DNA of 64,000 nucleotides. Source: Tachypleus tridentatus. Its lineage: Eukaryota; Arthropoda; Merostomata; Xiphosura; Limulidae. The stretch lies in NCBI RefSeq assembly GCF_004210375.1, contig NC_134837.1:158141310-158205309 (forward strand), read 5' to 3'. The notes beneath the pieces were generated by a model. That model made no database searches. It saw nothing but the letters and a program-made list of their open reading frames with translations, and was not told the DNA's origin. A program made the position numbers and the translations under genes. Positions 39,391 to 40,326 of this stretch are shown in pieces (the first letter of the stretch is position 1; each line of letters starts with the position of its first letter).

Positions 39391-40326
39391 CTACGCCTTC
39401 AAAACCTCAACTTCATGATAAGAGTGAAATGACGAAAAACAAAACAAAGAGCTCACCTTGCTGGTGAATCTGGATTTTATCTTGCGGAAAAGAATTCTTG
39501 GTGACGAAAACGAGAGCGAAAAACATGAAAACGGTGTCGGTAACGCGTTTGCTCTTTCGGCCTCTTCGATTATTTTTTTTCTCACCAGGGCTCTTTGGAC
39601 TATCTTCTGTTTTGTGTAAAACTCTGCAAAGTTGTTGACAATGATTGGTACAGGCATCCCAACAACCACTACACCAGCAATACAGCAGATACTCCCAATC
39701 ACTTTGCCAGGTAAAGTAACGGGAACCATGTCTTCAAAACCAACAGTCGTCATGGTAACACAAGCCCGCCAAAAGGCAGAGGGAATGCTGGTGTAAAGTG
39801 TTTCAGGTTCGTCTTTCTCTGCAAAATAAGCGAGACTAGAAAAAAACACGATGGAAATTACAAGGGATAAGATGAGCAACCCGAACTCTTGGATACTTTT
39901 CTTCATTGTATATCCCAAACTTTGCAAGCCTCTCGAATGTCGAGCCAGTTTTAAAATTCTCATAACCCTTGCCACACGGAAGATTAGGATAATTTCGTGA
40001 ATGTTTTCAAAATCTTTAGGGACAATATTTGTAGCTACAACAATTGAAGACACGGTGAAAGGGGTAATAACTAGGAGGTCAACGATGTTTAGTATACTTT
40101 TTAAAAACTTCCCTTTGTTTGGTGCAGAAAATAATCTTAAGATATATTCTATACTAAACCAAACCACACATGTGATTTCAATCATACCCAGTTTTTTGTT
40201 TTCTTTGTGTAGCTGAATTTCTTCATTGACATCTTCATCATATTGTTCCTTTAAGGAAGGTATCGTATCTAAAATCTGTGTGATGGATGATAGCAGGATG
40301 AAGAACACAGAGAAGCTGGCAATGAT
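39391..40326 (-). CDS. Kv2/Shab-like potassium channel, S1-S6 exon with GFED filter
   Basis: Acceptor ctttag before 40326; the exon starts [12 protein letters not shown] (S1). It runs through S2 ([18 protein letters not shown]), S3 ([13 protein letters not shown]), S4 ([18 protein letters not shown], with charges in three-residue spacing but the first Arg positions replaced by His and Glu), S5, the pore, and S6 with the [14 protein letters not shown] gate, then a ~55-residue tail and stop. Family members form tetrameric, voltage-gated plasma-membrane K+ channels. Here the filter (39730-39741) is [10 protein letters not shown], not TTVGYGDIYP: Tyr to Phe and the second Gly to Glu, each one base away. 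The pore helix has WR for the usual WW. No other break is seen in 311 codons. Confidence 0.93.
   Translation of the reverse strand: [311 protein letters not shown]

Follow-up and report, generated by a model that had tools for sequence, protein, structure and literature searches.

The closest described counterparts of the gene considered here are the Kv2 (Shab) voltage-gated potassium (Kv) channels of animals and the silent or regulatory Kv subunits. In Kv channels the zinc site of the tetramerisation domain (T1) is defined by the motif HX5CX20CC, and Kv2 genes presumably have an intron at the boundary that reads VAAK/I at the protein level. The vertebrate subunits Kv5, Kv6, Kv8 and Kv9, as well as the cnidarian R-subunits, keep a GYG selectivity filter. 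Here we describe a Kv2-type gene in a 64,000-nucleotide stretch of the xiphosuran Tachypleus tridentatus (contig NC_134837.1, positions 158,141,310 to 158,205,309), henceforth the window, which carries on its minus strand a T1 exon and an S1-S6 exon with the filter GFED (Table 1). The gene may be a divergent Kv2 paralogue that was recently disabled, or is being disabled, and we put the probability of this reading at about one half.

Ancestry, filter and reading frame

The S1-S6 exon was aligned with Kv2.1, Kv4.2, Kv3.1 and Shaker, which were checked against the PDB, and with a provisional Drosophila Shab sequence. Its best PDB match is Kv2.1 (2e-79, residues 1-262) and Pfam recognises an Ion_trans domain (3.2e-45). 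Identity to Kv2.1 is 48% over 256 aligned residues and 36-41% to Kv3.1, Kv4.2 and Shaker; it amounts to 48-49% to Kv2.1 and Shab, as against 78% between these two when the provisional Shab sequence is used. The T1 exon matches BTB_2 in Pfam (5.6e-26), has the T1 domain of Kv2.1 as its best PDB match (5.4e-39) and carries the HX5CX20CC zinc motif at amino acid 160. Both T1, closest to Kv2 and with the zinc motif, and the S1-S6 region, closest to Kv2 among Kv1 to Kv4, point to Kv2 by descent. No relative of the window protein was confirmed in prokaryote genomes and viral contigs. A first-pass annotation of the window had called the exon Shab-like throughout, which agrees with the best match but is too strong because about 50 of the 311 residues, those after S6, show no Kv2 similarity. 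No Kv2 C-terminal similarity was found in the last 53 residues (39394-39552, minus strand), and nothing convincing emerged at E <=1 either for the Kv2.1 C-terminus (provisional query sequence) in the window or for paralogous fragments elsewhere in it.

The filter TTVGFED is encoded by ACG ACT GTT GGT TTT GAA GAC at 39750-39730. The GFED reported by the same annotation at 39741-39730 was borne out codon by codon, and a chance motif is not at issue because it sits at the aligned filter position. The K+-selective signature TxGYGD or TxGFGD is therefore absent. Three further substitutions, W187R, Y201V and L206P, all lie within 12 residues of the Glu in the alignment, the first of them converting the FWWA of Kv2.1 to FWRA. 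With Glu for the second filter glycine and Arg for a pore-helix Trp, the protein would lack a normal K+ pore. The S6 gate, the degeneration of which marks silent and regulatory Kv subunits, is retained as PVPIIVNNF, preceded by VVVVGM where Kv2.1 has VLVIAL. A structure prediction of P0001 alone (pLDDT 40.2) was set aside. A full-text literature search for GFED with 'potassium channel', or for the strings TVGFED and TVGYED, supplements lying outside the search, returned no paper, and the passages available of PMC11825129 contained nothing on the pore-helix Trp.

In S4, RR of Kv2.1 is replaced by HE at amino acids 110-111 and Q by L at amino acid 114. We take that Q of Kv2 to be the first-charge position, the lost arginines preceding it. 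The proposal that the first S4 charges are replaced describes the RR pair above the core, but the core sensing arginines are intact in the alignment with Kv2.1, and an argument from S4 is weak because these charges remain.

Translation of all minus-strand frames revealed that the gene is intact only with respect to the open S1-S6 exon, the sole part to which the first-pass annotation had applied the word. The T1 frame runs through KKESMRN and VSSLSGT into a stop before S1, while the pre-S1 linker VWNLMERPDTSVAAK and its donor lie in a different frame which opens at 42462. Between VW and AAK this linker shares nine of its 15 residues with Kv2.1, and the T1 Cys-Cys lies 41 residues from the linker Trp, compared with 42 in Kv2.1. 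The simplest reading would be a net loss of one base, or a gain of two, within 42462-42441. No open frame leads from T1 through S1 across the junction as aligned with Kv2.1 (stop at 42440-42438) and, because of the frameshift, T1 to S6 is not encoded across it as assembled. The gene thus has one disabling lesion of the pseudogene type, a frameshift as read in the assembly.

The linker ends at a GT where Kv2.1 reads VAAK/IL, and the S1 exon begins at the matching residue. Candidate donors were scored with an approximate weight matrix and ranked among the minus-strand GTs of the window. The presumed ancestral donor scores 1.78, above 96.4% of them, and a cryptic donor at the start of the linker scores 3.66, above 98.8%. 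Splicing at 42405 leaves the frame broken, while the donor at 42461 is in phase with both exons. The conservation of the linker implies that it was translated until recently.

A history of constraint is apparent in the remainder of the protein. At the 63 sites invariant in Kv2.1, Kv4.2, Kv3.1 and Shaker the window gene keeps 53 residues, and nine of its ten changes (T-S, I-V, A-V, L-M, F-Y, Y-F, L-V, I-V and A-G) are conservative (BLOSUM62 >=0), with G198E the sole radical one; at least nine conservative changes in ten has a probability of 0.016 under a neutral spectrum of single-base missense changes. In leave-one-out controls Kv4.2 differs at 13 of 66 sites, Kv3.1 at 5 of 58, Kv2.1 at 4 of 57 and Shaker at 2 of 55, and ten differences in 63 is high yet inside the family range. 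Differences from the Kv2.1/Shab consensus, again with the provisional Shab sequence, number 85 at 198 shared sites, 63 of them conservative against 52.5% expected for single-base missense changes (binomial P 3.5e-5, single-base changes only being modelled). Given that the differences are mostly conservative, selection probably acted on the open reading frame (ORF) during the greater part of its history, and any neutral phase would have been short. As far as the sequence can tell, the changes fit a protein long under constraint that broke abruptly at a single point.

Disabled paralogue or live subunit

We favour a recently disabled paralogue over a live subunit with an altered pore. Such a paralogue would long have been under protein-level selection and would then have lost its function recently. 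Messenger RNA spliced at the ancestral donor would meet the stop at 42440, yielding a T1-only fragment, or the message would be degraded. GFED may then represent a second null-type change from the same late phase as the frameshift or, alternatively, may have been tolerated once conduction by the subunit alone was no longer required. The frameshift looks young because both flanking pieces are conserved. If 0.12 indels per substitution are assumed, the probability that the coding pieces together carry no more than one lesion is 0.68, 0.34 and 0.058 at neutral divergences of 0.005, 0.01 and 0.02, respectively; the corresponding numbers of radical hits expected at the 63 invariant sites are 0.32, 0.64 and 1.28, so that a single radical hit is compatible with a short neutral phase.

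Several observations weigh against this reading. A second stop or frameshift was not found in the 311, 224 and 19 codons of the coding pieces, although lesions in the post-S6 tail of about 50 residues would go unseen since it lacks similarity. An indel of one base could stem from an error of assembly, and the age estimate hangs on the assumed indel-to-substitution ratio. Moreover, W187R, Y201V and L206P suggest that the pore has been changing for longer than a brief neutral phase and, because these Arg, Val and Pro substitutions lie near the Glu, GFED would also fit a change of the pore that is older and was tolerated. Finally, the donor at 42461 could bypass the linker and leave the gene translatable, a route that is possible because this donor is in phase and scores well.

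The foremost alternative is a live Kv2 subunit of regulatory (silent, KvS-like) or dominant-negative type, in which the frameshift would be an assembly indel or would be bypassed via 42461; we consider this possible, at rather less than an even chance. T1 and the voltage sensor would allow the protein to join ordinary Shab subunits, while GFED and FWRA would render it non-conducting alone and cause it to alter or poison heterotetramers. The intact T1 zinc motif and core S4 charges are consistent with this, as is the protein-level constraint along most of the branch (63 of the 85 differences being conservative). The rapid divergence resembles that described for regulatory subunits in passages of PMC3519636, and such subunits arose several times independently in animals according to parts of PMC9989356. 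Bacterial channels with Glu at the same position (GYED, GYEL) are selectively maintained, as set out below. The frameshift as read argues against a live subunit, as does the retention of GYGD by vertebrate KvS subunits. The alpha-like gate PVPIIVNNF is a further difficulty, since passages of PMC9989356 record non-conservative gate changes in 43 of the 44 regulatory subunits considered from Nematostella and mouse, although its authors regard these changes as a marker rather than a cause. The non-conducting or modifying Shab-type subunit proposed in the first-pass annotation retains its basis in a Kv2-type protein with a non-canonical filter and Kv2.1 as best match, but the gene is not simply intact. 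A more elaborate version, which we regard as less likely than not, is that a live Kv2 subunit uses the genomic GFED, with one or two copies per Shab tetramer placing Glu and the pore-helix Arg beside the filter and thereby silencing or reshaping the pore, and that splicing at 42461 or editing to GFGD might switch between forms.

Glutamate filters in planctomycetes, unusual conduction and editing

A search of bacterial and archaeal genomes for DNA patterns encoding TTVGFED yielded at least 119 loci and, among the matches listed, the contexts of which were read by eye, one recognised K+-channel pore, L027, from a planctomycete metagenome-assembled genome. When 392 genomes of its phylum were queried with this pore, 123 had matches, the genome of origin being one of them. 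Among the best-scoring 30 loci (L121, the same gene as L123, being uncounted) the second glycine is replaced by Glu in 12, Arg in six, Gln in three and Ser, Asp and Met in one each, the Ser and Asp loci having alignment gaps beside the filter, and is retained in six. The 12 Glu filters comprise eight GYED and one each of GFED, GFEE, GSED and GYEL. In a separate set of 29 loci of the generic Ion_trans_2 family the filter was alignable in 24, all with Gly at the second-glycine position. Other loci of the planctomycete set show GSRD, GSRE and GSQD filters. The full proteins L123 and L124 carry TrkA_N and TrkA_C domains, the GFED-bearing pore is closest to MthK, and its gene, L123, is open for 364 codons.

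Ratios of nonsynonymous to synonymous substitution rates (dN/dS) were estimated pairwise for 11 Glu-bearing genes, the GSED gene being left out, in the 28 of 55 pairs that exceed 75% amino acid identity. They range from 0.036 to 0.160 in 22 pairs, many of which have dS >1, and the other six of the 28 are saturated at dS. All 22 pairs are drawn from nine genes, the eight with GYED and the one with GYEL, the GFED (L123) and GFEE genes being without a close partner. The low dN/dS indicates that, at least among the GYED genes, Glu at the second glycine is maintained. The initial contention that filter geometry should not allow a Glu was thus too strong: 12 of 30 bacterial RCK-type homologues, putative conductors, have one, with the GYED and GYEL genes under purifying selection.

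By analogy, the window gene might encode a live conducting channel with an unusual and perhaps poorly selective filter, as the Glu-bearing bacterial channels would be if they conduct, but we consider this very improbable. The GYED, GFED, GFEE, GSED and GYEL filters of the planctomycete pore homologues, and the purifying selection on the GYED and GYEL genes, lend it some plausibility, yet those pores are distant, have two transmembrane segments (2TM) and are putative conductors only, and the frameshift stands against it here as well. Passages of PMC5429665 describe K+ selectivity in a trypanosome channel that has GGYVG where TxGYG would stand, while mutations of the second glycine are reported, in parts of PMC3283738, to abolish selectivity and function. 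Two other candidate sources were discarded: GsuK was rejected as a precedent for a non-glycine filter, its filter being given as TVGFG in passages of PMC3510474, and PMC11251424 was left unused since the 'second glycine' in the portion available is KcsA G77, which we take as the first glycine of GYG.

Least probable of all is A-to-I editing at 39734, which would convert GAA to GGA and give GFGD in the mRNA; it would repair neither FWRA nor the frameshift. An A-to-G step would exactly reverse the filter substitution, and passages of PMC10937787 describe recoding of insect Shab at several sites, reaching almost 100% at one of them in a bug, but the neighbouring bases (5' G, 3' A) form a poor editing context, and A-to-G restorable differences are not in excess among the 85 (12 A-to-G, 12 G-to-A, 3 C-to-T and 3 T-to-C). 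Folding with 400 or 500 bases per side places the A in a predicted 13-pair duplex with 40044-40056; its two 41-base segments have an energy of -22.1 kcal/mol, which puts them within the lowest 1.7% of exon segment pairs drawn at random. However, this duplex disappears with 350 or 700 bases per side, as it does with 60-300, where the A is left unpaired (probability of pairing 0.04-0.05). Alternative segments close by bind the site segment more stably, down to -24.9, and the local fold of 301 bases does not beat shuffled sequences (z -0.35).

Window features and comparison with known channels

Coordinates are collected in Table 1. A second AATAAA is present at 38503. One copy of the core of a repeat resembling a short interspersed element (SINE) lies in the channel intron and another just upstream of the gene in opposite orientation, and a degraded relative of the repeat (78-80% identity) occurs downstream of the S1-S6 exon at 38452-38571; the core was not found in viral contigs. 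The window also contains Tc3/Mos1-type transposase fragments and, at 47845-48762, two same-strand ORFs which we take to resemble Penelope-type elements with a GIY-YIG-like end, with no match in Pfam. A 117-residue ORF at 57107-57460 has a start that looks, by eye, like a signal peptide, also with no Pfam match. ARAGORN detected no tRNA genes in the window. The split channel gene, the transposase fragments and the seven nearly identical SINE-like copies are in keeping with a eukaryotic origin, and a repeat of this kind may occur in horseshoe crabs.

Table 1. Features of the channel gene and its surroundings (window coordinates), with the Glu-filter planctomycete loci in the last row
Feature	Position	Strand	Remark
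T1 (tetramerisation) exon	42462-43133	-	ATG at 43133 to last codon before the frameshift, 224 codons
Cryptic donor GT (AAT|GTAAGC)	42460-42461	-	In phase with T1 and S1-S6 exons; drops 19-residue linker
TAA ending the T1 frame	42438-42440	-	Seven codons (VSSLSGT) past last T1 codon
Conserved Kv2 pre-S1 linker CKQFVWNLMERPDTSVAAK	42406-42462	-	Frame other than that of T1; first base is last T1 base
Presumed ancestral donor GT (AAA|GTACGT)	42404-42405	-	Aligns with VAAK/I of Kv2.1
Presumed intron, linker to S1, with SINE-like repeat copy	40327-42405	-	Splice boundaries
S1-S6 exon	39391-40326	-	311 codons open, then TAG
S4	39934-39999	-	HE for RR of Kv2.1; core charges retained
Arg replacing second pore-helix Trp (FWWA of Kv2.1 to FWRA)	39766-39768	-	Codon CGG
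Selectivity filter GFED	39730-39741	-	GGT TTT GAA GAC
S6 gate PVPIIVNNF, alpha-subunit-like	39628-39654	-	Alignment
AATAAA, possible polyadenylation signal	38966-38971	-	420 bases past stop; consensus match only
SINE-like core, seven copies	1079-1123, 2254-2298, 5273-5317, 6872-6916, 40791-40835, 43722-43766, 52442-52486		0-2 mismatches
Glu-filter planctomycete loci	L123:1501-2595, L124:745-1923, L125-L132, L136, L137		Pore homology

If the gene is live, it would provide an animal voltage-gated subunit without the second filter glycine; if it is dead, it would be unremarkable, a duplicate lost not long ago. Of more lasting value, as a by-product, is the planctomycete channel clade with Glu at this position, part of which is under purifying selection, and which makes the need of the K+ filter for its second glycine testable.

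The planctomycete channels share with the window gene the Glu at the second filter glycine, L027/L123 having the identical TTVGFED, but they are bacterial, 2TM and RCK-type. The silent and regulatory Kv subunits resemble it as divergent Kv paralogues with an intact T1 and voltage sensor, possibly dependent on a partner; they keep GYG, whereas the filter is altered here. Their S6 gate is usually altered, according to passages of PMC9989356, while that of the window gene mostly is not. Protozoan homologues with GYX filters (GYSD/E, TIGYRD) are K+ channel paralogues in which the second filter glycine is likewise replaced, but they belong to other families and carry Ser or Arg rather than Glu; similar homologues occur in some prokaryotes, with function unassigned there (both from parts of PMC3283738). 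From Kv2/Shab itself (KCNB1, Kv2.1) the gene differs in having GFED for GYGD, FWRA for FWWA and HE for RR above S4, in the frameshift before S1 and in having no visible Kv2-like C-terminus, but it shares with it HX5CX20CC, the pre-S1 linker, the VAAK/I boundary, WFxxEY in S2, the S4 core, FAEKDE and the PxPIIVNNF gate.
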